Assembly (NCBI GenBank): GCA_003217735.2
Contig: CP031585.1
Coordinates: 2,529,501-2,593,500, forward strand
Source of the DNA: Marinibacterium anthonyi
Lineage (GTDB): Bacteria > Pseudomonadota > Alphaproteobacteria > Rhodobacterales > Rhodobacteraceae
Length of the DNA stretch: 64,000 bases
Direction: 5' to 3'
The translations under genes were made by a program, and so were the position numbers. Shown one piece after another: positions 4,330-35,956 of the stretch (its first letter is position 1; every line of letters begins with the position of its first letter). Under the pieces are notes generated by a model. The model did not search any database and had not been told where the DNA came from. It was given only the letters and a program-made list of their open reading frames with translations.

Positions 4330-4401
4330 GTTAGGTGCCTTTCGGCTGCAATGCGGTCACCCGGCGTCGGGTCGCTTGAGTGGCGTCGGTTGGACAGGCG
4401 G

Positions 4402-10256: not shown

Positions 10257-10284
10257 AAATAGTGTGACTGAAATAGTGTGACTG
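10257..10284 (+). repeat. 14-bp tandem duplication just upstream of sngA
   Basis: AAATAGTGTGACTG occurs twice head-to-tail, ending two bases before the GGGGGAGGGG ribosome-binding region of sngA. The duplication creates two GTG codons in the neighbourhood and could change the spacing of promoter or leader elements. Confidence 0.7.
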
Positions 10285-10301
10285 AAGGGGGAGGGGCGAT
10301 A

Positions 10302-12845
10302 GTGTCTTCATTACTCAAGTTTTTCCGAATTACATTCTTTCTTTTTGTCTACTTCATCTTTTGCATGATCGTGGTGGTCACAGTCCTCCAGGGGTGGCCG
10401 GTGGGTGGCCAAATGTTGTTCGCATTCGGTGCTCCTATCATTTTGGTCTGGTGGCAAGAAAAGCGGAGATCGCGGAAAGTCGCTGCAAAAGCGCCAGCCG
10501 GGCAAAGTTCCGAAACTCGAACATCGCGGCCTGAGTCGGTGCCGCGCCCAAGTGCCTACGACAAGCGTATCGAGCGTGAGCGCGAACGAACTCGCGAAGC
10601 CATTGCGTCCAAAGCGCCGGCTGCCGTTCAAGCCTATTCCCCACCAAAGCAGGACTACGGTGAAATCGTTCGGGTTGGAAAGTCCGCGGCGCCGGCACTT
10701 GCAGCGGTCGCTGAACGAAACCAGCCCTCGCGAGTGGCATCGAGCGCATCGGCCCGATCAACGAAAAGCGGGTGGGTCCGGTCTAACGAAACAGCTAGCG
10801 TCGCCGGCCGCAACATCGGCGGGATGGTCTATGTCGGCACGCCTCCCTTGCTGAACACCTACGGGTATCGAGACAAGTGCCGAGCCTATATCGATCCATC
10901 CCTGTCTGTCGCGCGCTCTGGAGCAGACAAAGCTGGTGAAGGTATGCCCTACTGGCCCGGATACTCGGATATCTCACCTCAGTGCCGGGCGACCTACCTC
11001 GACTGGTTGGCGAGCGGGCGCAACGACGCCTCCTACAACCCCGGCTACATGTTCCTGTACTTCTACGGGCTGGAGCGTCGCTTCTTCGTCGATCAGTCCA
11101 ACGAAGATGCCAAGGATATAGTCCAGGAAGTTCGGCGGCTGCAGTCACTTTACCCTGAAAACCACTCCGTCAGGCGCTATTTGGGCGAGTTCCTCGACAT
11201 TGCGATGCTTGCCGAAACCGACCTCGACGCTATCGAGCCGATTTTCGAGAAGCAGGGCTGGGAACTTCCGTTCTCACTCAAATACGCAATCGGAGCTCGG
11301 ATCGACAAAGGCGAGAACCTGACAGCTGATTGGTTGCTGAGTTGGTTCATCTGCCATCCGGAAACAAACCTGAGAACTCCCGCGACGCGGTGTCATGACG
11401 AGTTCGTCGCTCTTTTCCGTATGCGGTTTGATCGGCGTTTTCCTGATGGGCTCAAAGTTACAAAACCCCGGAAATCACTCACGGCATCCTATCGGGCCGC
11501 CTCCAGCGAGTTTCAGGGGTCCGCCAACCCAACCGTCGACGGCAAGCCGGTTCCCGATATTTCCGGCCTGCGCAAGCCGGTAGAGATTGCCCAGGAGTTG
11601 GCTGACGAGGTGATGACCGACCTCGACAAGCTCAGTCGCTTCCTGGGCCGAAACCCTGATGGCCGCGGAAGCGTTGAAGCTCATGCATTGCTGCCTTCTG
11701 AACTGTGGGATGCCTTCCCATCCAAGGAAATGGACCGCTTGAAATCTTGGGCAAGCACTATCGTCGATCGGGGGGGATTGGTGCCGCTTGAGGAGGTAAT
11801 CGGACGTCTGGAGGGAGAAACGAGCGAGAAAATCGGGAAACGGCAGATGACAGGAGCGGCCGATGCGCTCGCCCGCCTCGGTTTCGGTCTGGCGCCCGAC
11901 CCTCGGTTTGCGCTCCGGTCGCCCAAGGCGGAGGAGCCTGTTGTCCTGTTCAGCCTGGGCGAACCCATCGAAAGACTGGAGGAAGTTTCCGACAGCTATC
12001 GAAGCGCGCTGATTGAATTGGCACTTGGGTCGTTCGTTGCTCACGCGGATGGTCGCATCGCGGATCCTGAACGCAGGGCACTGGAAGATCAGGTTTCTGC
12101 CGCGTCCCTCAGCGATCAGGAACGCCGCAGGCTGCGTGCAAACCTTGAATGGTTTCTGGCCGTGCCACCGGACATGACGCTTCTGCGGCGCAAACTGAAG
12201 GAGGTGGACCAAGACAGCCAGGCCGCAATGCGAGCAGCGCTGGTTGGTGCAGCACATGCCGATGGCATTATTCATTCCGACGAAGTCGCAAGCATCGAGA
12301 AAATGTACAAGGCTTTGGGTCTTGACCCTGCGCTTGCCTACTCGGACCTGCATGCCGGCGAAGTTGTGGATGGTCCTCGCACTGTGCGTGCCTCGCAGCC
12401 GGGTCGTCCAGGCGAAGCGATACCCGATCTTGAGAAAGCCAGCGGACCCAAGCTCGACGCTTCGCGGATCGCAGCGATCCGTTCGGACACCGAGCGCGTG
12501 TCGTCCGTACTCGGTCAGATTTTTGATGTCGAAGAGAACGAAAGCGGTGCCTCCACACCTGTCTACCAAAGCCAGGTGGCAGGGCTTGACCCGAAACACG
12601 GCGCCCTTGTCCTCGAAGTACTTACTCGGGAGCATTGGTCTGAGACCGAGTTCGAGAAGATCTGCGCCTCGCATGGTTTGATGGCATCCGGGGCTTTGGA
12701 AGTCGTGAATGAATGGGCTTTTGAGACCTACGATGAAGCGCTTCTCGACGAGTATGATGGATATGACGTGTCTCCGGAGATTGCGGAGGCGGTAAAAGAA
12801 AAGATGAGTGCGGAGGGCAGGAATGTCGAAGTTGAAACCACGTGA
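10302..12845 (+). CDS. sngA: Shango defence protein SngA (TerB_N-TerB-TerB_C, membrane-anchored)
   Basis: This 847-residue protein begins with two hydrophobic segments (about residues 4-45), then a low-complexity basic linker. A TerB_N-type domain lies near 185-260 (YGYRDKCRAYIDPS...GYMFLYFYGLERRFF). A central TerB helical domain carries two acidic metal-binding motifs (FVAHADGRIADPE near 575, AAHADGIIHSDE near 650), and a TerB_C region occupies the last 130 residues. GTG at 10302 is chosen because GGGGGAGGGG precedes it; an earlier GTG at 10278 lacks a binding site. Its 3' end overlaps sngB by 23 bp. TerB protein, ATPase and helicase in this order are the known Shango composition. SngA is presumed to sense or tether the complex, which is inference. 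Confidence 0.85.
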   Translation: MSSLLKFFRITFFLFVYFIFCMIVVVTVLQGWPVGGQMLFAFGAPIILVWWQEKRRSRKVAAKAPAGQSSETRTSRPESVPRPSAYDKRIERERERTREAIASKAPAAVQAYSPPKQDYGEIVRVGKSAAPALAAVAERNQPSRVASSASARSTKSGWVRSNETASVAGRNIGGMVYVGTPPLLNTYGYRDKCRAYIDPSLSVARSGADKAGEGMPYWPGYSDISPQCRATYLDWLASGRNDASYNPGYMFLYFYGLERRFFVDQSNEDAKDIVQEVRRLQSLYPENHSVRRYLGEFLDIAMLAETDLDAIEPIFEKQGWELPFSLKYAIGARIDKGENLTADWLLSWFICHPETNLRTPATRCHDEFVALFRMRFDRRFPDGLKVTKPRKSLTASYRAASSEFQGSANPTVDGKPVPDISGLRKPVEIAQELADEVMTDLDKLSRFLGRNPDGRGSVEAHALLPSELWDAFPSKEMDRLKSWASTIVDRGGLVPLEEVIGRLEGETSEKIGKRQMTGAADALARLGFGLAPDPRFALRSPKAEEPVVLFSLGEPIERLEEVSDSYRSALIELALGSFVAHADGRIADPERRALEDQVSAASLSDQERRRLRANLEWFLAVPPDMTLLRRKLKEVDQDSQAAMRAALVGAAHADGIIHSDEVASIEKMYKALGLDPALAYSDLHAGEVVDGPRTVRASQPGRPGEAIPDLEKASGPKLDASRIAAIRSDTERVSSVLGQIFDVEENESGASTPVYQSQVAGLDPKHGALVLEVLTREHWSETEFEKICASHGLMASGALEVVNEWAFETYDEALLDEYDGYDVSPEIAEAVKEKMSAEGRNVEVETT

Positions 12846-14130
12846 ACGCGATGCAATCGTGCAGGCGCTTCGGGCAGGGGTCGTGCCCAAGCTCGGCCTG
12901 CGTCACATCCAGGTCGGCCGCGTCCGCGAGATTGAAGAGCTCGTCAAGGACATGGACCGGATATCCGATGGCGGATCGGCGATCCGGTTCATCATCGGAG
13001 AATACGGATCGGGAAAGACGTTCTTCATGAATCTGATCCGTCTTGTCGCGCTTGAAAAGGGTCTGGTGGTGATGTTCGCGGACCTGGCGCCAGACCGGCG
13101 CATTCACGCGACCGGCGGTCAAGCTCGAGGCCTCTATGCAGAGATGGCCAGAAACCTGTCGACACGGACAAAGCCAGATGGCGGGGCCTTGGCCAGCGTG
13201 GTGGAGCGTTTCGTCAGCCAGGCACATCGCGATGCTGAGGAACGCGATGTGCCCACGGGGTCTGTCATTCGTGAACGCCTTGGTCACTTCGAAGATCTCA
13301 CCGGGGGGTTTGAATTCGCAGAGGTGATCCGGCGATATTGGGAAGGTCATGAGACAGGAGACGATGACCTGAAATCCGCTGCCTTGAGATGGCTGCGCGG
13401 TGAATTCGCCACACGCACCGACGCGCGCAAGGCGCTAGGCGTGCGAACGATCATCGATGACTCGAGCGTCTATGACCATCTAAAGCTGATGTCGGCATTC
13501 GTGTGCGAGGCCGGTTACAAAGGTTTGCTCGTCGGCCTTGACGAGATGGTGAACCTCTACAAGCTCACCTCGTCTCAAGCCCGCAATGCGAACTACGAGC
13601 AGATCCTCCGGATTCTTAACGACGTGCTGCAGGGCAGTGCTGAGAACCTCGGATTTCTCATGGGCGGCACACCGGAATTCCTGATGAACACCCGTCGAGG
13701 GCTATACAGTTACGAAGCCCTTCAATCGCGTTTGGCCGAGAACACATTCGCGCGAGATGGATTGGTCGACCTTTCAGGGCCCGTTGTCCGGCTGGCCAGC
13801 CTGACCCCTGAAGACCTCTTCGTTCTTTTGGCCAACGTTCGGCGGATCATGCAGGACGACGCCGGTGCTTTGCCGGACACCGCGCTCGAGGCCTTCATGG
13901 CACATTGTTCGGATCGGATCGGCGAGGCGTATTTCCGGACACCGCGCAATACGGTGACGGCCTTCGTGAACCTGCTTTCGGTGCTCGAGCAAAACCCCGG
14001 TGTCGAATGGAGCGATCTGATCGAAAAGATCGAGGTTTCCGAAGACCGCGGCGAAGACATGACCGAGGTCGACGAGTCCACTGGTGCCGAAACGACCGGT
14101 GACGATGATCTGATCAGCTTCAAACTCTGA
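12823..14130 (+). CDS. sngB: Shango defence ATPase SngB (DUF2791-type P-loop ATPase)
   Basis: This 435-residue AAA-like ATPase of the family also seen as BrxD in BREX loci has Walker A GEYGSGKT at about residues 60-67 and Walker B LLVGLDEM near 235. Sensor and arginine-finger-like regions follow (LGFLMGGTPEFL, YEALQSRLAENTF), and the C-terminal tail is acidic. The start at 12823 (MSKLKPRERD) has a GGAGGG binding site six bases upstream and lies inside the end of sngA, indicating translational coupling. ATPase and helicase genes are separated by five bases. The protein likely uses ATP to load or regulate the helicase; this is inferred from family and context. Confidence 0.85.
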   Translation: MSKLKPRERDAIVQALRAGVVPKLGLRHIQVGRVREIEELVKDMDRISDGGSAIRFIIGEYGSGKTFFMNLIRLVALEKGLVVMFADLAPDRRIHATGGQARGLYAEMARNLSTRTKPDGGALASVVERFVSQAHRDAEERDVPTGSVIRERLGHFEDLTGGFEFAEVIRRYWEGHETGDDDLKSAALRWLRGEFATRTDARKALGVRTIIDDSSVYDHLKLMSAFVCEAGYKGLLVGLDEMVNLYKLTSSQARNANYEQILRILNDVLQGSAENLGFLMGGTPEFLMNTRRGLYSYEALQSRLAENTFARDGLVDLSGPVVRLASLTPEDLFVLLANVRRIMQDDAGALPDTALEAFMAHCSDRIGEAYFRTPRNTVTAFVNLLSVLEQNPGVEWSDLIEKIEVSEDRGEDMTEVDESTGAETTGDDDLISFKL

Positions 14131-14135
14131 CGCCG

Positions 14136-16319
14136 ATGACCAGTGCTTTCGACAAGCTGGCGAGGCCTGTGCAGAAATGGATACGCCAGCAAGGATGGCG
14201 CGAGCTTCGCGACATCCAGGTGCGATCCATCCGGACGATCTGCGAGACCGATGCCGATTTGATCGTTGCGGCTTCCACGGCAGGCGGAAAGACCGAGGCG
14301 GCGTTCCTGCCGTTGATTTCACAGGTGCTTGACGAGCCGTTCGGCGGCATCGGCTTCGACCTGCTTTATATCGGTCCGCTGAAAGCCTTGATCACGGACC
14401 AGGCCATGCGGCTGGAGGGCATCTGCCAGGAAGCAGAGCTGCCGGTTGTTCCATGGCACGGGGATGTTTCTCAATCGATCAAGACGCGCGCGCTGAAATC
14501 TCCAAAAGGGATCCTGCTGATAACTCCAGAGTCCCTTGAGGCACTTTTCATTCGTCGCGGTTTGGAAATCGCCCGTCTGTTTGGGGCGACGCGCGCGGTC
14601 GTTATCGACGAGTTGCACACGGTTCTGGATAGCGAGCGCGGTGTCCAGCTCCGTTCGTTGCTCACAAGGCTCGAGCTCACGATAAAGCGTCCAATTCGTC
14701 GGATAGGTCTGTCAGCTACGCTGGGGGACATGGACCTCGCCAAGGCCTATCTTCGCCCTGACGCTGCAGGCTCTGTTCAACTGATCGAAGCAGAAGGCGG
14801 CGAGGCGGAATTGAGGCTCCAGCTTCGCGGTTACGTATCATGCGATGAGGACGAAAACAGCCCATCCGCAACGGATGCCATCGCAGCCCATCTGTTCAAG
14901 CACCTTCGAGGCAGCGACAACCTCGTCTTCGCTGGGGCGAGGCAACGAGTCGAGATCTATGCAGATCGGCTGCGGGAACTCTGCGAGAGGGAACATCTGC
15001 CGCAGGAATTCTATCCTCACCACGCTAGCCTCTCCCGCGAACACCGAGACTTCGTGGAACGCCGCTTAAAGGACGCCGCAAAGCCGACAACTGCCGTCTG
15101 CACGTCGACGCTCGAGCTTGGAATCGACATCGGTGATGTGACCTGCGTGGCCCAAATCGGCGCGCCATTCAGCGTTGCCGCGTTGCGACAACGTCTCGGC
15201 CGGTCCGGCCGACGCGAGGGACAGCCAGCCGTCTTGCGGCAGTATGCCGTCGAGACTCAGTTGACGCCAGAAAGCAGCTTCGTTGATCGTCTTCGCCTTG
15301 GTTTGATCCGGTCTATCGCGATGATAGACCTGTTGCTTGAGGGGTGGTGCGAACCGCCAAGACCGCAGGCGCTTCATCTTTCGACGCTAGTCCATCAGAT
15401 ACTGTCGGTCATAGCACAACGTGGCGGTGCTTCTGCCAGTGTGGTCTACAGTATCCTGTGTCGCGAGGGCCCCTTTCGCAAGGTCACAACCGAAGTGTTC
15501 GCGGATGTGTTGCGTGCGATCGGTCATACCGAAACCGGTTTGATCGAACAGTCCGGAAGCGGACTGCTACTCTTGGGACCTGCAGGCGAAAAGCTGGTCG
15601 AGCATTACAGCTTCTATGCAGTGTTCCAGACGCCTGAGGAGTTCCGCTTGGTAGCCGAAGGGAGGGATCTTGGTACCCTGCCGATCGACAACGTTCTTGC
15701 CCCAGGGATGCTTCTGATTTTCTCTGGGCGGCGGTGGGTGGTTCAGGAAATCCATGACCGCGAGAAGGTGATCATGGTCAAGCCCGCGAAAGCGGGCGTG
15801 CCTCCCGTCTTTGGCGGTGATCCAGGTGACATTCATGACAAGGTGATTGATCGAATGTTCGCAGTGCTCGAAGGAGGCACCCGATCGGCATACATGGACG
15901 CGGCTTCTCTAAAGATGCTGGCCGAAGCGCGTGCAAATTATGACCAACTTGGGTTTCGAGCCACGAATATCCAGGCTCTCGGCGAGCGTACATCGATCAT
16001 CGCAACGCGAGTGGGGACGGTTAAGACGTCAACCCTGGCGCTCGCACTTAGAAGTGAGGGATTTTCAGTAGAGCAGCATGACGGGTTTCTGCTGGTGGAG
16101 GTCGGCGATGAAACACCTGATCTTCGAGCACTCCTGGCCGATCTTCGATCCGGCGAACCTGTCGACTTGTTCGCGGGAGCAGGGAACCTGATGTCGGAGA
16201 AGTTTCATCCATATCTGTCTAGCGCGCTCTTAGTTCTGGATGCAGCATCCTCAAAGTTGTCGGTACAAGCGCTTCCCGATGTGGTCGCAGCTATTGTCCG
16301 AAAAGGATCCTTCAATTGA
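14136..16319 (+). CDS. sngC: Shango defence DEAD/DEAH-box helicase SngC
   Basis: This 727-residue superfamily II helicase has motif I ASTAGGKTEA (about 46-55), motif II DELH (about 157), motif III SAT (about 192) and motif VI LGRSGRREG (about 353-361), with a helicase-specific C-terminal extension of about 350 residues. LELGIDIGDV before motif VI is typical of Lhr/BrxHI-like helicases. It is the last gene of the operon, five bases after sngB, with no strong binding site of its own, so coupling is likely. Length and order match a complete Shango system; I see no frameshift or lost motif. It would act on phage nucleic acid, but the trigger is unknown. Confidence 0.87.
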   Translation: MTSAFDKLARPVQKWIRQQGWRELRDIQVRSIRTICETDADLIVAASTAGGKTEAAFLPLISQVLDEPFGGIGFDLLYIGPLKALITDQAMRLEGICQEAELPVVPWHGDVSQSIKTRALKSPKGILLITPESLEALFIRRGLEIARLFGATRAVVIDELHTVLDSERGVQLRSLLTRLELTIKRPIRRIGLSATLGDMDLAKAYLRPDAAGSVQLIEAEGGEAELRLQLRGYVSCDEDENSPSATDAIAAHLFKHLRGSDNLVFAGARQRVEIYADRLRELCEREHLPQEFYPHHASLSREHRDFVERRLKDAAKPTTAVCTSTLELGIDIGDVTCVAQIGAPFSVAALRQRLGRSGRREGQPAVLRQYAVETQLTPESSFVDRLRLGLIRSIAMIDLLLEGWCEPPRPQALHLSTLVHQILSVIAQRGGASASVVYSILCREGPFRKVTTEVFADVLRAIGHTETGLIEQSGSGLLLLGPAGEKLVEHYSFYAVFQTPEEFRLVAEGRDLGTLPIDNVLAPGMLLIFSGRRWVVQEIHDREKVIMVKPAKAGVPPVFGGDPGDIHDKVIDRMFAVLEGGTRSAYMDAASLKMLAEARANYDQLGFRATNIQALGERTSIIATRVGTVKTSTLALALRSEGFSVEQHDGFLLVEVGDETPDLRALLADLRSGEPVDLFAGAGNLMSEKFHPYLSSALLVLDAASSKLSVQALPDVVAAIVRKGSFN

Positions 16320-16637
16320 ACGCTACGTCCGCCCCACATCTGCTGTCTTCGCTAGTAAGGCCGTTTCTGCTCCAAGGATTTGATGCAAAGGGCGGAAAGC
16401 AGACGATCAGTGCCGTCGCCTTGACGACATGTCCCATCGCCCGCCCCGAGATCTGAGTGTAACCCTCTAGTACGCGCCTCTTCTCTCGGTGCCATTTTCT
16501 GTTTGGTGGCGGCTCCATTCAACTGTCGATTTATCCTTGACTCTATTCTAGCTTCGCGTGGACGATGAAGATGTCTTGATCACCGGTCAAACGACAACGC
16601 CGGCCCAACTTGTTGAAAATAAAATTGGAGATCCTTC
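16320..16637. other. 318-bp gap after the Shango operon
   Basis: No gene was found. A TTGACT hexamer at about 16537 could be the -35 of a promoter for the small gene at 16638. No strong intrinsic terminator was seen after sngC. Confidence 0.4.
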
Positions 16638-16778
16638 ATGGCACTCAAGCCAGGACCAAAGCCTATAGCAAAATCAACCGGAAAACCGGATCAGCGTCGC
16701 CGTGACAACAAAAGCACGCCTGGGAATACACCCTCTCTCAAGCCGAGCAAGTCAAGTAAGCCCCCCAAGAAAAAATGA
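16638..16778 (+). CDS. small Lys/Pro-rich basic protein (46 aa)
   Basis: A 47-codon frame opens with ATG eight bases after TTGGAG. The peptide (MALKPGPKPIAK... ending KPPKKK) is almost entirely Lys, Pro, Ser and Arg, so it is probably disordered and could bind nucleic acid. It lies between the Shango operon and an IS5-family element, about 110 bp left of the insertion sequence. It resembles in composition, but not in alignable sequence, the peptide at 9513-9644. No function can be assigned. Confidence 0.6.
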   Translation: MALKPGPKPIAKSTGKPDQRRRDNKSTPGNTPSLKPSKSSKPPKKK

Positions 16779-16884
16779 GCGACGGCTCTCATTTGCCGAC
16801 CTTATAACCCTACGGACCACAAGCTTTTGGCGCTGCGCCGGCGGAGGCGGACAGGTAGAGTAGAAGATGCCAAGCGGCCGAAAC

Positions 16885-17934
16885 GGCTCTGTTGCACAAA
16901 TTCCGTGTGGGATTCATCTCATGAATCCAGCGTGGTAGCTGGGATGCATGAGCAGACCTACACCCGCAACCTACAGGACCAGGAACTGGCCAGCATACAA
17001 TGAGGCGCTCAAGCGCCGGGGCTCTCTGTCGATCTGGTTTGACCCCGACATGAGCTGGGATGCCGCGCCGTCAAGCAGGCGCGGCCGTCAGCAGAGCTAC
17101 AGCGACGCCGCTATCCAGACGTGCCTTACGATGAAGGTTTTGTTCGGCATGGCGCTTCGGCAGACGACAGGCTTCGTCGAAAGCCTGTTGCGGTTGGTCG
17201 GCCTCGACTGGGCGGTGCCCGACTTCAGCACGCTGTCCCGCCGCCAGAAGACCCTGGCCGTCAACATCCCCTACCGTGGGTCGAAGGGCCCGCTCCACCT
17301 GTTGATCGATAGCACCGGGATCAAGGTCGAGGGCGAAGGCGAGTGGCACGCCCGCAAGCATGGTGGCCCCAAAAGGCGCGTCTGGCGCAAGATCCACTTG
17401 GGGATTGATGAGGAAACGCTGGAGGTTCGGGCCGTCGAAATCACAGGGAGCCACATCGGTGATGCGCCGGTGTTACCCGACCTTCTCGATCAAATCCCGC
17501 AGGACCAGGAAATCTGTAGCGTCACCGCTGATGGCGCCTACGACACGCGCAAATGCCACGATGTAATCGCTGACCGCGGTGCCCACGCTGTCATCCCGCC
17601 CCGCAAGAACGCGAAGCCCTGGAAGGCGATCAGCGCCGGAGCCGTGGCGCGAAACGAAGCACTGCGAGCATCGAAATACCTCGGTCGTGCCCTCTGGCGA
17701 CGATGGAGCGGATACCACCGCCGAAGCCGCGTCGAGACAAAGATGCATTGTGTGAAACTGCTGGGGCAGCGCCTCATGGCACGGGACTTTGACCGACAGG
17801 TCGCGGAGCTTCAGGTCCGTATCGCCGTTCTGAACGGGTACACCGCGCTCGGCATCCCTGTCACTGAGCCCGTGGGATAAGTCTGTCCGGGGAAAGGGGA
17901 ACTTCGGCCATAAGCCGATTTGTGCAACAGAGCC
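16885..17934 (+). mobile_element. IS5-family insertion sequence (1,050 bp)
   Basis: The element is bounded by inverted repeats GGCTCTGTTGCACAAAT (left, 16885-16901; right, its reverse complement ending at 17934). It contains a single transposase gene, the usual layout of the IS427/IS1031-like members of IS5. The flanks (CCGAAAC on the left, GCGCGCC on the right) show no target duplication, so the neighbourhood was probably rearranged after insertion. Its right end interrupts the reverse-strand gene at 17935-18446. Confidence 0.9.
16948..17880 (+). CDS. IS5-family DDE transposase
   Basis: This 310-residue transposase has an N-terminal DUF4096/helix-turn-helix-like part (KVLFGMALRQTTGFVESLLR). 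The DDE catalytic core contains HLLIDSTGIKV (first Asp), VTADGAYDTRKCH (second Asp) and YHRRSRVETKMHC (Glu). The frame is intact and fills the space between the inverted repeats, so the copy looks potentially active. The ATG lies 63 bp inside the left end. Confidence 0.92.
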   Translation: MSRPTPATYRTRNWPAYNEALKRRGSLSIWFDPDMSWDAAPSSRRGRQQSYSDAAIQTCLTMKVLFGMALRQTTGFVESLLRLVGLDWAVPDFSTLSRRQKTLAVNIPYRGSKGPLHLLIDSTGIKVEGEGEWHARKHGGPKRRVWRKIHLGIDEETLEVRAVEITGSHIGDAPVLPDLLDQIPQDQEICSVTADGAYDTRKCHDVIADRGAHAVIPPRKNAKPWKAISAGAVARNEALRASKYLGRALWRRWSGYHRRSRVETKMHCVKLLGQRLMARDFDRQVAELQVRIAVLNGYTALGIPVTEPVG

Positions 17935-18446
17935 GCGCGCCGTGGCCAATCAGAAAATCGTCGTGCCTTGACACTCTTCATCAACTCCTTGGCAATTCCG
18001 ATCGCCTCTGCAAGCAGCACTCGATCATTTATCGGGCTGTTTTGGGCATGGCTGATGTCGATCTCGACATTAGGGGCCGCCGAGGGGTTTTCTGGCAGCA
18101 CTATTCGCCAGCCCTCACCTTCCATATGAACGTCGCCGAGCATTGTTTTCAACTCGTATGGATGCCCCCGTACATCTCCCCGAGTAATTGCATTGGGCCC
18201 TCCGAATACATGGTCAAAGGCCGCGCCCTCGTAGGAAGTAATGCGTTCCACAAACGCCTTGATTGAGGCGACTTGTGCTTCGGATGGGGTCCACTCTCTA
18301 TTGGCGCTTCCTGTCAATGCGTTCCAATGAGGAAAGCCCAAACGATTGGCAACAAAGTCGAGTGCCACATGTTGCGGCTGCCCCATCGCTCTGGCGCAAC
18401 GCTTTGCTAGGAGCTTCAATGTTTTAAGCTTGTCGTTCTCTGTCAT
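17935..18446 (-). pseudogene. 3'-truncated gene with a HWNAL-type N-terminal domain, cut by the IS5 element
   Basis: Starting at 18446, the product begins MTENDKLKTLKLLAKRCARA and contains VALDFVANRLGFPHWNALTG. This N-terminal helical motif is shared by a family of mostly uncharacterised alphaproteobacterial proteins (DUF5623-like and some glyoxalase-superfamily fusions). The native sequence stops at KARRFSDWPRRA. Reading then continues into insertion-sequence DNA and ends at 17811 after about 41 foreign residues. I could not find the missing 3' end left of the insertion sequence. The family assignment is tentative. Confidence 0.7.
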
Positions 18447-18869: not shown

Positions 18870-20210
18870 CTAAAGCTTGTCGAACACTGAGCCCATCCTC
18901 GGCTCGAACAGCCTTTCATAGGTCTTTAGCAGATAGGTGTCTGTCATACCGGCCACGAAATCGCTGATTTGCCGGAGGTCGCCACCTGCTGCTTCCAATT
19001 TCGCATGCGCATCGCGCGGCAGCAAACGTTCTGGATCTGATTGCATTGCTTCAAAGACCGATACAACCATGGATTGCCCCTTGAATTCGAGATGTTGTAC
19101 GCCCGGACTGCGAATAACCACCTGCATTACAAGCTCTTTCAGGGCCTTGAGGAAGCGGGCGTGACCTTCTGGAATCTCGACGCGCCAGCGGAGCAAGGGG
19201 TCTTGGAATTCGGGGCGTTCGATGAAACGGACGGGTGTAATCAGATGATTGACCCACCGGCTGATCCAGCGCTTGCGCGTGTTGCTGTCGCCAAACAGTC
19301 CGTCGACCATGGCCTCGTATGGGGCGTTGCTCTCGGTGGGGCCCTTCAGCCGCCTTTCTTCGACAAAGCTCTTGCAGGATTCCTCAGGAACGAGGTCTCT
19401 GAATTGGCGCTCTGTGACGAGCCGAAGGGCAATGGCATCCTCCAGATCATGGACCCCGTAGGCAATATCGTCTGCGACGTCCATGATGCTGCAATCGAGA
19501 GACTTATGTAGAGTGCGGGCATGCTTGCCTTCGCGCTTTTCGATAGAAGTGAAGGCATCTTGATCAGCATTGCAGAGCGGTTCGAGAATCCAGTCGACGA
19601 CGTCGGTTTCGCTGTCGAGATAGCCCTTTGGCGGCGTCGAGGCTTTCAAGTCAATCGTTCGCAGAACCGAAGGGCCCTCCTGCAACTGCGGGCGCAGTTC
19701 GGAGTTTCGCAACACTGAGAGTGCAACAGGGTATTTCAAGACGCCAAGCATGGAACGGCGTGACAGGTTGGCCCCCGCAGCGGCAGAGAAGTTTTCGAGC
19801 CGTGCCAGGAGACGCAGGGTCTGGCCGTTGCCCTCGAACCCTTCCGCATCGCGCATGCAGTAGTTCAGTGCGACTTCACCGCCATGGCCGAAAGGAGGGT
19901 GGCCCAGGTCGTGGGAGCAGGCGATCGCATGGATTTGGCTGCGATCCGGGAGAGTTACCGTTGCCGGGTGATCGGCGAAACTGCGCGCGAGCTGGACTGC
20001 GAGCCCGCCGGCGATCTGAGCCACTTCCAAGGAATGCGTCAGGCGCGTGCGATAAAAATCACTGTCGCCGAGATTCAGGATCTGGGTCTTGCCCTGCAAT
20101 CTTCTGAATGATGCCGAATGGATCACCCGGCCATAGTCGACATCCCCGATATTTCGGGCGTCTTCCTTCTGCGGGTTCCAGGCCTCTCGGCGAGCATTCC
20201 AGGTACTCAA
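18870..20210 (-). CDS. dgt: deoxyguanosinetriphosphate triphosphohydrolase (dGTPase, HD superfamily)
   Basis: This 446-residue enzyme should cleave dGTP (possibly other dNTPs) to the nucleoside and triphosphate. HD-domain residues are visible: RLTHSLEVAQIA (His59), SHDLGHPPFGHGGE (His100-Asp101) and the later DVADDIAYGVHDLEDA. The start is TTG at 20210 with a GAGGAG binding site, giving MSTWNARREAWNPQKEDARN. It lies 24 bp after the yhaN stop in the same leftward operon. That linkage is unusual for a housekeeping dGTPase and suggests a joint role with the YhaON nuclease, perhaps in phage defence, where dNTP depletion is an established strategy. Confidence 0.9.
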   Translation of the reverse strand: MSTWNARREAWNPQKEDARNIGDVDYGRVIHSASFRRLQGKTQILNLGDSDFYRTRLTHSLEVAQIAGGLAVQLARSFADHPATVTLPDRSQIHAIACSHDLGHPPFGHGGEVALNYCMRDAEGFEGNGQTLRLLARLENFSAAAGANLSRRSMLGVLKYPVALSVLRNSELRPQLQEGPSVLRTIDLKASTPPKGYLDSETDVVDWILEPLCNADQDAFTSIEKREGKHARTLHKSLDCSIMDVADDIAYGVHDLEDAIALRLVTERQFRDLVPEESCKSFVEERRLKGPTESNAPYEAMVDGLFGDSNTRKRWISRWVNHLITPVRFIERPEFQDPLLRWRVEIPEGHARFLKALKELVMQVVIRSPGVQHLEFKGQSMVVSVFEAMQSDPERLLPRDAHAKLEAAGGDLRQISDFVAGMTDTYLLKTYERLFEPRMGSVFDKL

Positions 20211-20234
20211 ATCAACTCTCCTCGGCGCGATGTC

Positions 20235-23200
20235 TTAAAGTTCATGAATGACCGGAGGCGTTGCGCAAACGCTCTTTGCGATCTCGACCACGTGACGGTG
20301 GTGGGTCAGGTAAATCGCTTGGCCGCGTCCGCCGATGGCTTCCATGACGCGGCAGGCGGCGCTGGTGCGCGCCTCGTCGAAGGTTTCGAAAATGTCGTCG
20401 CAAAAGAACGGGAGCCTCGTGCCCTGCGCGACCAGTTGTTCATGGGCCGCTGCCCGCAGCGCTAAGTATAGCTGGAAGCGCGTGCCCTTCGACATTTCAG
20501 CCGCACGCTTGCTGACCCCGTTGCCATCGACGGCGAGCAAAATCTCGGACTCCTTGTCCATCTGGGTGCTCAGCGTCGGATAGGCGCCTTGCGTGAGACT
20601 GGCGAAGCATTCTTCCGTCGCGGTCAACATGCCACTGCGATGGCTGTCACGGTAGCGCCGGATGGCGCCGGAGGCGAGGTGATGGCCCAGGGAAAGTTCG
20701 AGATGCTCCAAGGCAGCGTCTTCGAGCTGCAGTTCCAGCGTCGCTTTCTGCTCGACCAATTCCGCAACCCTGTCGTCTCCCTTCACCTCGGCAAGGGCAT
20801 ACTCGGCGGCTGTGCGGTTCTGAATGGCCTGGGTTAGCTCATCCTCGGCATGGGTAAGATCGGATCGGTTGCTGTCGAGTTCGCCCTCCAATGCGGCGAC
20901 CGAGGTCTCTGCAAGCTGGGCGCGGGCTGTCTCGATGTCGGTCGTGTCCAGTTCGGACAGGACTTGGCGGGTGATTTTCTCCAGCGCGACGCGGTTCTCG
21001 ATTGCTTTCTGCGTGCGGATTGCGGCCTCGCGCAGGGCGTCGATGTCGCCCGATGTAATCGTATCGGGGAAGAGCGTGGCGATTGTCTCGACCTCTTGGT
21101 CGATGGCGTTTTGCCTATCCTTGTTTTTGATCAACTCGGCCTCTGCAGTGTCTGTGGAGGTGTCGAGTTTTCTGGCGGCCTCCTGGGCCGTGCGCGCTTG
21201 TTCCGCCAGGGCTTTGAGCGCGGCGAATGTCTTTGCCGCCGTTGCGTGTGGGTCCTGCTCATGGGCGCGTGCCAGGCTGTCGACCTCCTGGGCGAACTGT
21301 TTTTGATCTGCCTGCATGGTTGAGATCCGACGCTCGCCCGCGGCGCGTGCGTTTTCGTGTTCGCGCAAAGCGCGCAGGGGCTCCAGCGAGGCCTCCAGGC
21401 GTTCGGGGGGCAATGCCTCTCCGAGAAGGTCGTGGATCATTGCGAGCCAAGTCCTCTTCGCATCCTCCCTTGCCTTAAGCGCGTCTGCGTGACGCTCTTC
21501 GCGCCGGGCAAGATCCCGCTGCGCCTGTCGCAGGGTCGCCTCAGCCTTCGTATGGGCGTCGACTTGCTTGCGGTCTTCCTCGGCCTGGCGCCGGGCCGCA
21601 GCTAGGGCGCCGGTCAGGTCTGCTGGGGGAAAGGGCAGGGTCCGGGTCAGCTCGGCCAGCAGGGCGTCCGCTTGTTGGAGGATGGAATGATTGACCTCTT
21701 CTGTGTCGCGCAGGGCCTGGGCATCGTCGTTGGCCGCCTCGTGATTTAGCCTCCAGTCCAACCATTCGGCAGGCGTGATGCTGTCTGGAAGGCCAACCTG
21801 AGCCGCCGCCGCGCTGACCGAGGCCTCGATATTGGTGCGTTCTTCACGAAGGGTTTCCAGGCGTTTGTCCGCCTGAGCCGCACGGGCGCGGGCCTGGGCT
21901 TCGGCCTGGCCGATTTCGCGGAGCTGTGCCAGTTCGCGGGACTGCGCCAATCGCGCTTCGGCAGCGATATCATGCCCTTGCATCGCCTCGTGGAAGTCGG
22001 CGGCGGTCTGTCTGTCCAAGGCGGCAAGATGCTCCGCCCAGCGTGCATCGCGCCGCGCGCGCAGATCCTCAGCATCGGCATCCGAGATGAGCTTCGCGTC
22101 CCGGGCCAGTGATTTGGCCTGAGCCCCGCGGGCCTCCGCATCCTCCAGATGCTCGTCGCGCTTCTCCGTCGTCGTGCGCAGGTCGTGAAGCAAGTCCTGG
22201 TGGCGCTCGGCCCAGCTCGTTGCTTGGTGGCGGGAGGTCGGGCAGGCAGGCAGATGATCGAAAGTGACGCCTGCGGATGAGAGCGCAGCCAGGGATCGCC
22301 GCGCCTTGATCTTCATATCCGCGATCGCCTGTTGCGCTGCGGCGTAGGCAGGGGCGAGGGTCTCCGCATCGAAGCGCAGCAGAATATCTGCTACCCGTGG
22401 GCGTTCCGCATCCGCGGGCGCGCCATCCTGCATGGCTTCGGTCGCGGCGATCACCCGCTCTTTCAATTCGGCGGTTTCGCGAGCCTCGATCTTCTCTTGG
22501 GAAATAGTCTCGCGGAAAGTTTCCCTGGCACTCTCCAGAGACGCAAGATCGGCGCCCGACAGGACCAGCCTTTTCAGATCGACGTCAGGCGGGGTGACCC
22601 CAAGATCCCATGCGGCCTGCTGCATAGATGCCTCCGCGGCCTGCCGTTCGTCCTCGCGCCTGTCGAGGTCGAGCTGTGCGGTGCGATCCCGCGCGGCGAG
22701 GTCCTCTAGCGCCGCTAGCGTGGTCGAGAGATCAAGAAGTTTCGGATCCAGAGCGAGGGATTCGCGATCTGCCGTGAGGCTCGCGATCTCCTCGGTCAAG
22801 CGTGCGATATTCTGTGTGGCCAGCCCGCGATCTCTGTGTAGCTCGATCAGCCGTTCCGGATCGAAATCCAGATGATCGGGATAGGTCGCGAAAGGGGCAA
22901 TCGCCTGTTCCAGGTCCCGTATCTCGCCCATCAGGGGCAGGGCACGCCGCTGCGCCTCCATGCGCGCCTTTGTTAGATTCAGCGCATCCCGCGTCTTGCG
23001 CGTCTCCCGTTCGGCCTCTTGCGCCTTCCCCAGATCCCGCTTGAGGGCCTTCCAGGCGCTGACGGTCACGTCTCGGTCTTTGATCTGCTTTTCCACATCG
23101 GCCAAGGCGCGTTTCAACTCGGCCATGCGGGTGGTGCGTCCGCGTTTTTTCCATAGCGCGTCGGCCCGCTCGCGGACGCCGTCCAGAACGCTGCTAAGGT

Positions 23201-23672
23201 CGGCCACGCCCGCTGCAGCGGAGAAGAGCAGGCGCCCGATATCCCCTTCGGCATTCGCGATCTCTTCGCCGCCGCGTTCGATCGTCTCGTCGTCGAGGCA
23301 GAGCAGGCGGCGGTAATCCTCTTCGGACAATCCCGCGAGATGGGCTGACAGGGCAGCCTCCGGCAGCGCGGTGCCGGTCGCGTCGACCAGCGATCCGCTG
23401 CGCGTCGGCAGCCGCGTGAAATCACGCAAGACACCGTCGATATCCAGCCTGGCCGAGACTTGGAGGTTATTGCGCGGATGCTTGAAAGCATAGCCCTCGC
23501 GCAGTGGGAAACCGTAGAATAGCCGTAGGACGGCTTCCATCGTGGTGGTCTTGCCGGCTTCGTTCGGGCCATAGATGATGTGAAAATCATGGCCATCGGA
23601 GGCCGATCCAAAGTCGAATCGCCGGTCGGTGAAATGGCCGAAACGGTCCAGGGAAAGGCGTTGGATCCGCAT
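20235..23672 (-). CDS. yhaN: YhaN-like SMC/SbcC-type AAA ATPase
   Basis: This 1,145-residue protein has an N-terminal Walker A (GPNEAGKTT, 35-43) and a very long Ala/Glu/Arg-rich coiled coil (about 190-1000). The C-terminal half-ATPase carries the ABC signature MSKGTRFQLYLALR, Walker B/D-loop FFCDDIFETFDEARTSAA and the switch His in IYLTHHRH. No CxxC zinc hook was noticed at the coil apex, as in YhaN rather than Rad50. ATG at 23672 overlaps the yhaO stop (ATGA). Together with YhaO it should form an SbcCD-like complex acting on DNA ends or abnormal DNA. Confidence 0.9.
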   Translation of the reverse strand: MRIQRLSLDRFGHFTDRRFDFGSASDGHDFHIIYGPNEAGKTTTMEAVLRLFYGFPLREGYAFKHPRNNLQVSARLDIDGVLRDFTRLPTRSGSLVDATGTALPEAALSAHLAGLSEEDYRRLLCLDDETIERGGEEIANAEGDIGRLLFSAAAGVADLSSVLDGVRERADALWKKRGRTTRMAELKRALADVEKQIKDRDVTVSAWKALKRDLGKAQEAERETRKTRDALNLTKARMEAQRRALPLMGEIRDLEQAIAPFATYPDHLDFDPERLIELHRDRGLATQNIARLTEEIASLTADRESLALDPKLLDLSTTLAALEDLAARDRTAQLDLDRREDERQAAEASMQQAAWDLGVTPPDVDLKRLVLSGADLASLESARETFRETISQEKIEARETAELKERVIAATEAMQDGAPADAERPRVADILLRFDAETLAPAYAAAQQAIADMKIKARRSLAALSSAGVTFDHLPACPTSRHQATSWAERHQDLLHDLRTTTEKRDEHLEDAEARGAQAKSLARDAKLISDADAEDLRARRDARWAEHLAALDRQTAADFHEAMQGHDIAAEARLAQSRELAQLREIGQAEAQARARAAQADKRLETLREERTNIEASVSAAAAQVGLPDSITPAEWLDWRLNHEAANDDAQALRDTEEVNHSILQQADALLAELTRTLPFPPADLTGALAAARRQAEEDRKQVDAHTKAEATLRQAQRDLARREERHADALKAREDAKRTWLAMIHDLLGEALPPERLEASLEPLRALREHENARAAGERRISTMQADQKQFAQEVDSLARAHEQDPHATAAKTFAALKALAEQARTAQEAARKLDTSTDTAEAELIKNKDRQNAIDQEVETIATLFPDTITSGDIDALREAAIRTQKAIENRVALEKITRQVLSELDTTDIETARAQLAETSVAALEGELDSNRSDLTHAEDELTQAIQNRTAAEYALAEVKGDDRVAELVEQKATLELQLEDAALEHLELSLGHHLASGAIRRYRDSHRSGMLTATEECFASLTQGAYPTLSTQMDKESEILLAVDGNGVSKRAAEMSKGTRFQLYLALRAAAHEQLVAQGTRLPFFCDDIFETFDEARTSAACRVMEAIGGRGQAIYLTHHRHVVEIAKSVCATPPVIHEL

Positions 23673-24907
23673 CAGTGTCCGGCCCCCTTCATCTGCGCCA
23701 GGACGAGATCGGCGCCCGCCTTGGTCAATTTATCCACCAGCGCATCGCGCGCGGCCTCATCCGCCATCAACCGTTCGCGCAGGGCAACGGGCAGATCCTG
23801 CATGACGGTCTCGACCTCGTCACGGGCGAGGGCTGCAAACCCGGGGTCGTCGCGGATCGTTGCCATGATCGTCGCCAGTTCGTCGGCGGCGCCGCTTGCG
23901 CCTTCGGTTGCGTCCGGCGGCGAAAGGTCGAACAGGAGTTTGTCGATCCAGAGATCCCCGGTGGCCTGGGCAAGCACGTTCAACTGTTCGATCCAGACAT
24001 CGCGATCACGTAGGATTTGCCAGTGTCGCTTCGGCTTTCCGGTCAAAATCAGTCGGATCACGCCGATCGGCGCCGCGATCTCGTTGTGCATCGCACTCAG
24101 GTGGGACTTCAGCAGCCCGCGCAGAGCCTCGTCGCTCTCCGTCTCTGTCACATCCAGTTCGCTTTGGGCGAATTCAACGACGGAACTGGGCACTTCGCTA
24201 ATGTCGATCCGGCCCTGATCGATGGTCAGCAGCGTTGCGGATTTTGGGCCGTACTCGCCTATATCGCGCCCCTGCGGGGTGCCGGGCATTACAATCCAGG
24301 GAGCGGCCGAATGGACCTGCCGTTTGTGGATATGGCCGAGCGCCCAATAATCGAACCCCATGCCGGCCAGATCGGCGAGGCTGCAGGGGGCATAGATATC
24401 ATGGCCCACCGCACCGCCCAGCGAGCTGTGCAGCATGGCGATATTCACCGCGCCCGGGACCGGCGGTTTGAAGCGCGGCAGAAGGCTGTCGGGCGCGTGA
24501 CGGTCCGCGAAGCTGACACCGTGGATCACGATGTCGTCTGTCAGCGGTTCCATGCCGCCGCGTGCATCGAAAGGGTGAACGTGGGCAGGCAGATCGAGCG
24601 TTCCGGTGATCGGGTTCTCGGCATCATGATTGCCTTTGATGTAGAAAACCCTGATCCCCGCATCGCCAAGGCGGTCGAGCTCGGCCATCAGGAAGGCGCC
24701 CGTTCTTGCGCTGCGCTCTTTCCCATCGAACAAATCGCCGGAAATCAGAATGGCCGAGACGCCTTCGGAAATGGCGAAGTCGATAAGTCGGCTAAAGGCG
24801 GACCGGGAGGCCGCGGCAATCGTGTCGCGCAGGTCGGAGTTGCGCAAGGCCAGTGACCTGAGGGGAGAGTCCAAATGGACGTCAGCAGTGTGAAGAATCT
24901 TAATCAA
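23672..24907 (-). CDS. yhaO: YhaO-like metallophosphoesterase (SbcD/Mre11-type exonuclease)
   Basis: This 411-residue calcineurin-like phosphoesterase has metal-binding motifs in order: HTADVHLDSPL, ISGDLFDGKE, IKGNHDAENP, MLHSSLGG and LGHIHKRQ. TTG at 24907 is preferred (MIKILHTADVH), with AGGGGT upstream. The first ATG in the frame (24940) would add eleven residues that are not family-like. It is the first gene of a three-gene operon with yhaN and dgt and should supply the nuclease activity of the YhaON complex. Confidence 0.88.
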   Translation of the reverse strand: MIKILHTADVHLDSPLRSLALRNSDLRDTIAAASRSAFSRLIDFAISEGVSAILISGDLFDGKERSARTGAFLMAELDRLGDAGIRVFYIKGNHDAENPITGTLDLPAHVHPFDARGGMEPLTDDIVIHGVSFADRHAPDSLLPRFKPPVPGAVNIAMLHSSLGGAVGHDIYAPCSLADLAGMGFDYWALGHIHKRQVHSAAPWIVMPGTPQGRDIGEYGPKSATLLTIDQGRIDISEVPSSVVEFAQSELDVTETESDEALRGLLKSHLSAMHNEIAAPIGVIRLILTGKPKRHWQILRDRDVWIEQLNVLAQATGDLWIDKLLFDLSPPDATEGASGAADELATIMATIRDDPGFAALARDEVETVMQDLPVALRERLMADEAARDALVDKLTKAGADLVLAQMKGAGH

Positions 24908-25191: not shown

Positions 25192-25857
25192 CTATCCTCC
25201 GAACAAATCTCCTGTTTTGGATCGTTCATCGAGGAGATCATAGAAGGTTTCCATGTGCTTTATGAAGCCCTCTTCAGCAACTCTGTAGCGAAAATCAAAG
25301 GTTTCTGCTCTGAATTTTCGTATCCCGGACAACTCCGGGTACTCTGCCAATATTAAGAAATGCGGGGCTTGCCTCTCAGTCGCGGCAATGGCGTCAACGA
25401 TTGCATGTCTCTGTTGCTGCTTGAGCGGAGGTGACTTATAGGGATAAATGAAGACTTCGAAAATTTCCTGGTCTGCCTTGAAGCTGAAATCAGGTGAAAC
25501 GTCGACCTCATGTTTTCCGAAGACGATAGTCCGTCGCTCACGTTCGATGAAATTTGCCTTACCAATTGGAATATATCCGCAGATTCCGTCGAAGATTCCT
25601 AGTTTTGCAGCGGCCTCTCCAGGCCCATCCAGGGCCGCAATCGTGGCACGCGCCTTATCTGCGGGGTATCCTTTCAGGATCGTAGTCAGGATATGATAGA
25701 GATCCTCGTAGTTCCAAACGCCGCCGCGTTGTGCATCATATGCGGCGATTTTTTCTTTTAGTCGTTGCCGCTCTGAGAACGTTCCCGAAGGCCCATGTGC
25801 GCCGGGATTATATTCGCCTAACCCTCTGAGAAATTCGGTCTTGGACGTTCGTCGCAC
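25192..25857 (-). CDS. hypothetical protein (221 aa) between YhaO and AbiE
   Basis: I do not recognise this protein. The N-terminal third is charged (MRRTSKTEFLRGLGEYNPGA, FSERQRLKEKIAAYDAQRGG). A central mixed alpha/beta region contains GICGYIPIGKANFIERERR, VDVSPDFSFKADQEIFEVF and PHFLILAEYPELSGIRKFR, and there are no membrane segments. The VSPDFSF...EIFEVFIYPYK order loosely recalls PD-(D/E)xK nucleases, but spacing and residues are not convincing. The frame uses a GTG start. Its base composition is lower in GC than the neighbours, suggesting recent acquisition. Context between an SbcCD-like operon and AbiE makes a defence-related role plausible but unproven. Confidence 0.7.
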   Translation of the reverse strand: MRRTSKTEFLRGLGEYNPGAHGPSGTFSERQRLKEKIAAYDAQRGGVWNYEDLYHILTTILKGYPADKARATIAALDGPGEAAAKLGIFDGICGYIPIGKANFIERERRTIVFGKHEVDVSPDFSFKADQEIFEVFIYPYKSPPLKQQQRHAIVDAIAATERQAPHFLILAEYPELSGIRKFRAETFDFRYRVAEEGFIKHMETFYDLLDERSKTGDLFGG

Positions 25858-25985: not shown

Positions 25986-27020
25986 TCAGGTGCAGATGTG
26001 CTGGTTGTTTGCTGCGAGCTTTGCGCGCTCGGCAATGGATGCGCAACGTTCGATGAGGTCGTCGAAACGCTCAGCGTCTTCAAGCAGGAGGCCGTCGTCG
26101 ACCATATGCGCGTAGTCGGCCGCGAGCGCGGTGCGAGCCTCGCCGTTTGGGACCAGTTGCAGATTGCCGTGAACCGCGGCTTCATAGTCCACGGGCGTTC
26201 CGTCGATCGTCTTCTCCGGGAAGAACATACGCTTGTGCCGCGCCACTGCTGAGGCGAGGTCTCGGTCTGAAATAGCCACATCCGCGATGCCTGCATCGTC
26301 GAGGCGTACCAGGTCATGCCAATGGCGCGCGAAGCGTTCCCCACGGAGCCGCCCCTGTACGCAGAAGACATGGATCGCCGTGGCTTTCTCCCAAAAGGTC
26401 CGCTCGGCATGCATCACGCGCGGTGTCGCGGTCGGAAAGGCCACGCCCTCGATCAGCCCGTTCGCGTCGCAGGCGACGTCACGCAGGCTCGCCGGTTCGC
26501 CCGTCGACCTCGCGCCGAATTCCAGCATGACGCTCGGAGCGACATAGCCGGAGCCAGAAGAGGCGGCCTCGTAATCGATGAAAAGCCTGTCACCATCTGT
26601 CCGTGTCGAGGCTGAGAGCCCTTGCGCTGCAATGGCGTCCTGAATCAAGGGCTGCGTCGTTTCGACGACCCATTTCGGCAATCGATCCCGGACAGCTTTC
26701 GACCAGCGCTTTTCCTCACTGCGTGTGGTTGGCAGGGCTTCGGCGCGTTCGCCCACCAGATCCGGCGCGATTGCCCGAATGTCATAGGTCAGATCGACAT
26801 CTTCAGAAAAGCGCTGGATCACCCCATAGGCCTTGGAAAGGGAGGTTCCGCCCTTGAAAACGAGGTGCTCACCGAGCTCGGATCTGAAGAGGGTCTGAAG
26901 GGCCCAGACAACCCAGACGTCCTTTTCGAGCAGGTGCGCGGGCCGCCCGGAGCGATCTGCAACTACGGCCAGGGCCTCCTTGCGGTCTTCAGACGACAAA
27001 GAGAGGAAGGGCTCAGACAT
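25986..27020 (-). CDS. abiEii: AbiEii-type nucleotidyltransferase toxin
   Basis: This 344-residue member of the AbiEii/AbiGii toxin family (DUF1814 nucleotidyltransferase-like) has the minimal-nucleotidyltransferase signature: FKGGTSLSKAYG (57-65), then FSEDVDL with the two metal-binding Asp (74 and 76). Family members transfer nucleotides to RNA targets such as tRNA acceptor ends and block growth. The start at 27020 (MSEPFLSLSS) overlaps the last codons of the antitoxin gene by eight bases, the standard antitoxin-first order of type IV AbiE loci. Acting with AbiEi it would give abortive infection or stabilise the element. Confidence 0.88.
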   Translation of the reverse strand: MSEPFLSLSSEDRKEALAVVADRSGRPAHLLEKDVWVVWALQTLFRSELGEHLVFKGGTSLSKAYGVIQRFSEDVDLTYDIRAIAPDLVGERAEALPTTRSEEKRWSKAVRDRLPKWVVETTQPLIQDAIAAQGLSASTRTDGDRLFIDYEAASSGSGYVAPSVMLEFGARSTGEPASLRDVACDANGLIEGVAFPTATPRVMHAERTFWEKATAIHVFCVQGRLRGERFARHWHDLVRLDDAGIADVAISDRDLASAVARHKRMFFPEKTIDGTPVDYEAAVHGNLQLVPNGEARTALAADYAHMVDDGLLLEDAERFDDLIERCASIAERAKLAANNQHICT

Positions 27021-27606
27021 GCGCCGCCTTTCCGACACTGCGTGCAAGCCAGGTCGGGAACTGCGGTGCAGCGGTTACCAATTCGTCAAAGGCCGCTGCG
27101 GGCAGTTTCTGCTTCAGCGATCTAAGAGCTGTCTCTGCCTGTTCCGGCCCGAGCCAGGCCAGGGCGCGAACAGCACTGCCTGCCGGCCTCTTCCCAAGGG
27201 CGAGCTGCCATCGGGGGGCGTGGCGCAGTTCCACGAGTTGTTTGCCCAATGAGAGCGTGCGGCTGCGACCCGAGGTCAGGAACACGGAGCGAACAGGCAC
27301 TTGCGTGGTCAGGCCGAGTGCATTCGCTTCGGCTGCGCCGGTTGGAACGATGACTTCGCCGCGTTGCGCCGCGAGGGCCTCGACGGCCTGTTCTACGGAC
27401 GGTGCGCGCGTTCCAAACCGGCTTTTGACCGGTCGCAGGTAAACCCCGCGCCCGGCACGGATCAGCTGGCCGCGCTCGGCAAGGCGCGACAAGGCCTGAT
27501 CCACACCGGCACGGCTACCGAGGTGCAGCAGGCCCTTTGCGGCAAGTGGCGCTCCTTCCGGAAGCCCTTCTGCATGGGTCAATATCTGTTCGGCAAGGCG
27601 CTGCAT
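27013..27606 (-). CDS. abiEi: AbiEi-type antitoxin/autorepressor (DUF6088)
   Basis: This 197-residue antitoxin has an N-terminal winged helix (AAKGLLHLGSRAGVDQALSRL, RAGRGVYLRP) and the AbiEi C-terminal domain with conserved VIVPTGAAEANALGLTTQVP and VFLTSGRSRTL. AbiEi proteins neutralise AbiEii without binding it and repress their own promoter through inverted repeats. A perfect inverted repeat lies directly upstream at 27617-27646, consistent with this. The ATG at 27606 has AGGAGAAC upstream. Confidence 0.88.
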   Translation of the reverse strand: MQRLAEQILTHAEGLPEGAPLAAKGLLHLGSRAGVDQALSRLAERGQLIRAGRGVYLRPVKSRFGTRAPSVEQAVEALAAQRGEVIVPTGAAEANALGLTTQVPVRSVFLTSGRSRTLSLGKQLVELRHAPRWQLALGKRPAGSAVRALAWLGPEQAETALRSLKQKLPAAAFDELVTAAPQFPTWLARSVGKAAHV

Positions 27607-30384: not shown

Positions 30385-30447
30385 TTATCTTGACAGTCTG
30401 CACCGCATGCCACCCTGCCGTAGGATGGGTGACAGGCGTCGACGGTA

Positions 30448-30511
30448 GGCAGTTTTCAGGCTGGCCGCCGCGCTTACCAAAGAGCTGGCGGCGGCCAGCC
30501 TGAGAACTGCC
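30448..30511 (+). repeat. large inverted repeat (24-bp arms) near the left end of the recombinase element
   Basis: Left arm 30448-30471 and right arm 30488-30511 are complementary at 23 of 24 positions around a 16-base loop. It lies 63 bp inside the element and 48 bp before the first recombinase start. It could be an anti-readthrough attenuator or an accessory recombinase-binding structure. Confidence 0.8.
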
Positions 30512-30558
30512 GGGCCGAAGCGTGCACCGGGTGGGGGCATGGGGAGGGTTTTGCGCTG

Positions 30559-35943: not shown

Positions 35944-35956
35944 CTGGAGACCTGTC

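Follow-up and report, generated by a model that had tools for sequence, protein, structure and literature searches.

A dgt gene of the anti-phage dGTPase family behind yhaO-yhaN in Marinibacterium anthonyi: probable neighbouring cargo of a mobile defence island

Gene organization of the locus

The window analysed here is a 64,000-nucleotide stretch of Marinibacterium anthonyi DNA (contig CP031585.1, positions 2,529,501 to 2,593,500), in which three minus-strand genes, transcribed in the order yhaO, yhaN, dgt, lie between the defence systems Shango and AbiE (Table 1). A sequence-only reading of this stretch had proposed the trio as an unrecognised two-armed defence operon, with YhaON sensing or cutting phage DNA and Dgt starving replication. 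Inspection of the open reading frames (ORFs) confirmed three intact genes, the spacing of 24 base pairs (bp) between yhaN and dgt, and both flanking systems (AbiE as a whole at 25986–27606); the reading frames being intact, an artefact or broken ORFs were ruled out. The junction of yhaO and yhaN needed correction, being a one-base TGATG overlap and not the ATGA overlap described. The yhaO gene has an alternative TTG start at 24940, which would give a protein of 422 amino acids (aa).

Table 1. Features of the trio and of its surroundings (window coordinates)
Feature	Position	Strand	Basis or remark
dgt, stand-alone-type anti-phage dGTPase, 446 aa, TTG start	18870..20210	-	NF041026, PADLOC dGTPase, HD and HxxE motifs
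yhaN-dgt gap, 24 bp, GAGGAG ribosome-binding-like site	20211..20234	-	equal length in 8/8 relatives
yhaN, SbcC/Rad50-like ATPase, 1145 aa	20235..23672	-	AAA_27; no CxxC motif
yhaO, SbcD/Mre11-like calcineurin-type phosphoesterase, 411 aa from TTG 24907	23672..24907	-	Metallophos, motifs
221-aa ORF (context)	25192..25857	-	belongs to the island block; disrupted by a stop in L027 and an insertion in L030
AbiEii toxin-like nucleotidyltransferase (context)	25986..27047	-	family match
AbiEi antitoxin-like regulator (context)	27013..27606	-	family match
Shango SngA-SngB-SngC (context)	10278..16319	+	PADLOC

Judged from the layout, dgt is likely co-transcribed with yhaN. A promoter and terminator scan of the trio region gave one promoter-like and five terminator-like sites, against means of 1.6 and 6.2 in shuffled sequences; no site fell in the yhaN-dgt gap, but the counts for the region were no higher than in the shuffles.

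Protein families of the trio

Dgt, which carries the Pfam domains HD and HD_assoc, scored 525 bits against NF041026, "anti-phage deoxyguanosine triphosphatase" (cut-off 400; residues 4–435 of 446), and 470 bits against the PADLOC dGTPase model (PDLC02374). The HD motif (H100-D101) and the HxxE motif (H109-E112) are intact, and H59 and a DVADDI stretch at 244 are also present. The best-matching solved sequence was 9p8w (347 bits over residues 6–446), whereas 4x9e, which we take to be E. coli Dgt, reached only 76 bits and the chains 9p8s–9p8v 78–85 bits; 9p8w is probably SpdGTPase, and 9p8s–9p8v are probably CloA. SpdGTPase of Shewanella putrefaciens is reported to hydrolyse deoxyguanosine triphosphate (dGTP) alone, and its HD motif and residues H126/E129 are named (PMC12265719). 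By its family scores and motifs, the window Dgt is a further member of the known anti-phage dGTPase family. The proposal that the dGTPase is a defence gene therefore holds at the level of family, with NF041026 passed above its cut-off; the description of it as unrecognised does not, since NF041026 and PADLOC already name this kind of dGTPase.

In YhaO, the phosphoesterase motifs DVH, GDLFD, GNHD, LHS and GHIH are intact (Pfam Metallophos, 54.1 bits), and YhaN retains its Walker A motif at 35–42 and the ABC signature MSKG at 1060 (AAA_27, 218.3 bits). YhaO reached 56.7 bits against the SbcD model TIGR00619, under the cut-off of 77.65, so that it is SbcD-like without being filed as SbcD. The Rad50/SbcC family is defined by a zinc hook; no zinc-hook CxxC motif occurs within the 1145 aa of YhaN. 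The two genes thus appear to form a separate nuclease-ATPase pair resembling SbcCD and Mre11-Rad50, one that occurs solo elsewhere.

Association of yhaO-yhaN with dgt across genomes

A scan of genome contigs for YhaN, taking the best 80 of 87 relatives, gave 76 distinct loci. The YhaN hidden Markov model recognised all 76 of these (63/63 outside its training set), and the corresponding YhaO model 72 of the 76 (59/63 outside the training set). At eight loci (L026–L032 and L034), dgt stands 24 bases behind yhaN; their YhaN proteins are 89–97% and their Dgt proteins 95–98% identical to those of the window. The other 68 loci, where YhaN identity in the best segment runs from 74% down to 36%, had no Dgt relative on the DNA read, at most 10 kb on each side, and phmmer agreed. 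Within this set, L033 is uninformative for dgt, its sequence ending 164 bases after yhaN; L063 ends 1.2 kb after yhaN, and the loci from the class sample (L004–L025) had flanks of about 1.5 kb only. The arrangement is therefore not peculiar to this strain, being found in the window and eight further genomes, but it is confined to one lineage and to 8 of the 76 YhaN loci. Apart from yhaN and yhaO themselves, the commonest neighbour clusters were found at 23, 19 and 12 of the 76 loci, anywhere within the flanks read. The YhaN relatives at 71–74% identity (L039, L049 and L090) are 1145–1151 aa long and lack dgt, so that no added domain that could couple the partners is apparent in the window YhaN.

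The reciprocal comparison covered 59 loci of Dgt relatives (41–69% identical), drawn from 9 of 262 plasmid records, all 10 places other than the window's own in the order sample (E ≤1e-50) and 40 of 46 such places in the phylum sample, mostly read with 8–10 kb on each side. Neither YhaN nor YhaO was found on the DNA read at any of them (0/59 at E ≤1e-3). Co-occurrence within genomes was then scored at E ≤1e-3 for YhaN and E ≤1e-50 for Dgt in two overlapping samples. Among the 291 other genomes of the order, 44 had YhaN, 10 had an anti-phage-type Dgt and two had both, against 1.5 expected; among 397 genomes of the phylum, the numbers were 42, 45 and one, against 4.8 expected, which is fewer than chance (Fisher p 0.034). 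The three sampled genomes with both genes outside the lineage (G497, G531 and G818) carry them on different contigs; in G379, a single contig bears YhaN and, some 480 kb away, a partial and weaker match to Dgt (E 4e-40). Viral contigs yielded three Dgt loci, and the YhaN scan found none there. No second yhaON-dgt assembly was found outside the one lineage in the named genome contigs, the class, order and phylum samples, the plasmids or the viral contigs; in this search, the YhaN hits of the order and phylum samples were matched to Dgt by their positions, and three plasmid YhaN loci were read.

Spread of the block on a mobile island

From AbiE to dgt, the window and its eight relatives share 93–96% DNA identity where covered (L032 begins inside yhaO). 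Downstream of dgt, homology runs about 0.9 kb further and then ends in six relatives (L026, L028–L031 and L034), whereas in L027 and L032 it breaks off no more than about 10 bases from the dgt stop codon. The cargo beyond this point varies across the island copies. L027 has Gabija (GajB 905 bits, GajA 647 bits) followed by Shango, with the same genes in L032 by clustering; L028–L030 have genes for DUF4297 and HerA, identified by scans of L028 and L029 respectively, followed by Shango by DNA match; and L034 has another Gabija. The trio thus sits in defence islands, with Shango and AbiE in the window and Gabija, DUF4297 and HerA in the relatives, although this holds for one lineage only. The hosts, named here by record labels, include Salipiger mucosus (Rhodobacterales) and a record labelled Stappia indica (Hyphomicrobiales), a contig that could be wrongly assigned; taxonomy was looked up for these two only.

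Beyond AbiE, at 38258–40372 and 44911–50381 of the window, lie ParB-, strawberry-notch-helicase- and toprim-type genes with ArdC nearby, and the stretch from 36916 to about 40.5 kb is common to L026, L027, L030, L031 and L034. Such a gene set suggests a plasmid-like or integrative element as the carrier of the defence genes.

Over the nine copies, the ratio of non-synonymous to synonymous substitution rates (dN/dS) was 0.14 for dgt, 0.21 for yhaO and 0.25 for yhaN, and the other genes of the block gave 0.14 (AbiEii), 0.09 (AbiEi) and 0.14 (221-aa ORF). Purifying selection acts on the whole block and not on the trio specifically. In the relatives, dgt is open in 8/8 and yhaN is open at full length in 7/8, with one gap in L032; lesions elsewhere in the block comprise a stop in AbiEii of L026 and the broken 221-aa ORFs of L027 and L030.

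Several further features of the island were observed. In L032 (the record named Stappia indica), yhaN at 1296–4731 has one gap relative to the other copies and its ORF stops early at 1092 aa, which would reflect either decay or a sequencing error. Within window positions 16948–18446 there is a DDE transposase gene, where the relatives have other genes between dgt and Shango, and the ORF at 17811–18446 corresponds to the first part of a 380-aa gene, which has two CxxC pairs and is present at full length in L026, L028, L029, L030 and L034. The 380-aa protein, next to dgt in these five relatives, had no Pfam, PADLOC or solved-structure match, and the 221-aa protein between AbiEii and yhaO had no Pfam, NCBIfam or PADLOC match. 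A 6,531-bp insertion at 30385–36915, absent from L026, L027, L030, L031 and L034, splits an ardC-type gene into fragments within 29647–30393 and 36652–37146. It has imperfect inverted-repeat ends, an integrase, its own ArdC gene and two long ORFs without a Pfam match, matches copies on two plasmids of Roseovarius indicus and two of Sagittula sp. P11 at 98% identity, and is probably a transposon-like element.

Neighbourhoods of solo yhaO-yhaN pairs

YhaON might have been recruited to the island as a defence or anti-plasmid pair in its own right, beside an equally independent dGTPase, an idea in keeping with its patchy distribution (45 of 292 genomes of the order), which makes a separate accessory role possible, and with its presence on a number of plasmids (coverage of 80% or more in 49 of 72,556 records; 38 of the 40 listed are from one genus). 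Moreover, one solo copy adjoins Gabija-type genes. This is L038 of Pacificibacter marinus (13500–17300), where solo YhaON is directly followed by genes that cluster with the Gabija pair of L034; GajA matched one of the 116 flanking proteins of solo YhaON, namely at this locus.

The surroundings of the solo pairs nevertheless point elsewhere. Among the Pfam families listed for the 116 flanking proteins (the best 25 of 75), most are metabolic, transport or regulator families, led by formyl transferase (6), amidohydrolase (4), GntR (4), FCD (4) and transaldolase (3). On the three annotated plasmids read, the pair is flanked by metabolic genes, rfb genes or efflux genes (galactonate genes and lysA; purU and rfb genes; purU and efflux genes). 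PADLOC searches covered 116 of 128 flanking proteins (12 over 900 aa were dropped), 104 of 106 distal controls and 113 of 117 proteins from the flanks of Dgt relatives, all from ORFs called by a simple longest-ORF rule. No enrichment beside solo YhaON was visible among the families listed, the top family matching 2/116 flanking against 3/104 distal proteins; the flanks of Dgt relatives, with 3/113 for the top family, were likewise no higher than the control. This comparison is coarse, as it rests on 25 of 52, 88 and 123 families and counts families, not distinct proteins. Finally, no SbcD above the family cut-off was found in the M. anthonyi genome (0/1), so that YhaON may simply be its repair nuclease. 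A defence role for the pair in its own right is accordingly rather unlikely.

Discussion

The dgt gene of the window is probably a stand-alone anti-phage dGTPase gene that was joined once to a separate YhaON pair and spread as cargo of a mobile island. Its product would most likely hydrolyse dGTP during infection and so starve phage DNA synthesis, by analogy with SpdGTPase, which is reported to hydrolyse dGTP and to inhibit phage, the phage result reportedly coming from Tal et al. 2022. The yhaO-yhaN pair and dgt would have been placed side by side once, in the ancestor of one mobile defence island, and would since have spread together as cargo with AbiE. Dgt may thus protect against phages through this enzyme activity, with Dgt and YhaON presumably acting independently of each other. 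The trio resembles adjacent cargo more than a new machine, since relatives of YhaON and of Dgt were each found alone. Together with these solo copies, the absence of an added domain and of co-occurrence above chance favours independent cargo.

Three observations weigh against this interpretation. All eight relatives preserve the length of the yhaN-dgt gap and, very nearly, its sequence. In L027 and L032, where homology ends near the dgt stop, the three genes look like a piece of a single block. The integrity of the trio, with dgt intact in 8/8 relatives and no lesion seen in the trio in 7/8 while other genes of the block are broken in some copies, mildly favours retention as a set, but this counts for little because all eight share recent ancestry.

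A rival reading is a true three-gene system, in which YhaON would detect or resect phage DNA ends, and Dgt, switched on by these ends or by the single-stranded DNA produced, would empty the dGTP pool. Some dGTPases are activated by DNA, and the tight same-strand layout, the 24-bp gap kept in 8/8 relatives, the movement of the trio within a block and the purifying selection on all three genes are consistent with such a system. We consider it improbable, and the idea of YhaON and Dgt as one two-armed system did not hold up: the arrangement is limited to one recent lineage (8/76 YhaN loci), it was not seen near relatives of either partner (0/68, one of them uninformative, and 0/59), and the two genes do not co-occur above chance. 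In addition, no added domain is seen in YhaN, Dgt matches a solved dGTPase along its whole length, and SpdGTPase is reported to need no partner for dGTP hydrolysis (PMC12265719). The limited collection of literature searched contained nothing joining YhaN or YhaO with a dGTPase in defence.

Very improbable, too, and required by none of the findings, is a coupled pair within the island lineage, in which DNA produced by YhaON end resection would activate Dgt, so that damage would trigger the depletion of dGTP. If such coupling were true, dGTPase defence would gain a DNA-damage trigger, of which no description was found in the literature searched; the regulation of defence dGTPases is called unknown, the Clover case excepted (PMC12265719). 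That dgt is a housekeeping dGTPase and no defence gene, as the occurrence of a Dgt-type protein in 291 of 292 genomes of the order sample might suggest, is hardly credible and was rejected, because a second, more distant Dgt-type match lies elsewhere in the genome (C1:3536155-3536550; 44% over residues 18–160) and the window Dgt passes the anti-phage models NF041026 and NF003701 while reaching the cut-off of none of the eight listed equivalog dGTPase models.

As neighbouring cargo, the trio illustrates how a tight layout in one lineage can mimic a new system until solo copies of its parts are counted. It also documents one defence-island block present in several genera, and the window Dgt adds a marine member to the anti-phage dGTPase family.

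Comparison with known systems

With SbcCD, Mre11-Rad50 and other YhaON pairs, the pair of the window shares an ATPase gene that overlaps the end of the preceding phosphoesterase gene, both with intact motifs; it differs in that YhaO falls under the SbcD cut-off, YhaN lacks CxxC and the copy here is carried by a mobile island.

Clover combines the CloA dGTPase with the CloB nucleotidyltransferase (PMC12265719), and the locus resembles it in having a defence dGTPase with an adjoining partner gene. Here, however, the partner of Dgt is an ATPase/nuclease pair, and Dgt is far closer to 9p8w (347 bits) than to 9p8s–9p8v (78–85 bits). No nucleotidyltransferase-type Pfam family was found next to dgt in yhaN, in a 211-aa remnant or in the 380-aa gene of the relatives, with no CloB model among those scanned; the remnant and the 380-aa gene had no family match at all, which limits the comparison. 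The AbiEii nucleotidyltransferase lies 5.8 kb from dgt, next to its own AbiEi.

From the anti-phage dGTPases, the window Dgt differs in standing 24 bp behind yhaN, whereas the 59 relatives read have other neighbours. It agrees with them in its full-length match above the curated cut-off and in the same HD and HxxE motifs, and its plasmid relatives are annotated under that name.

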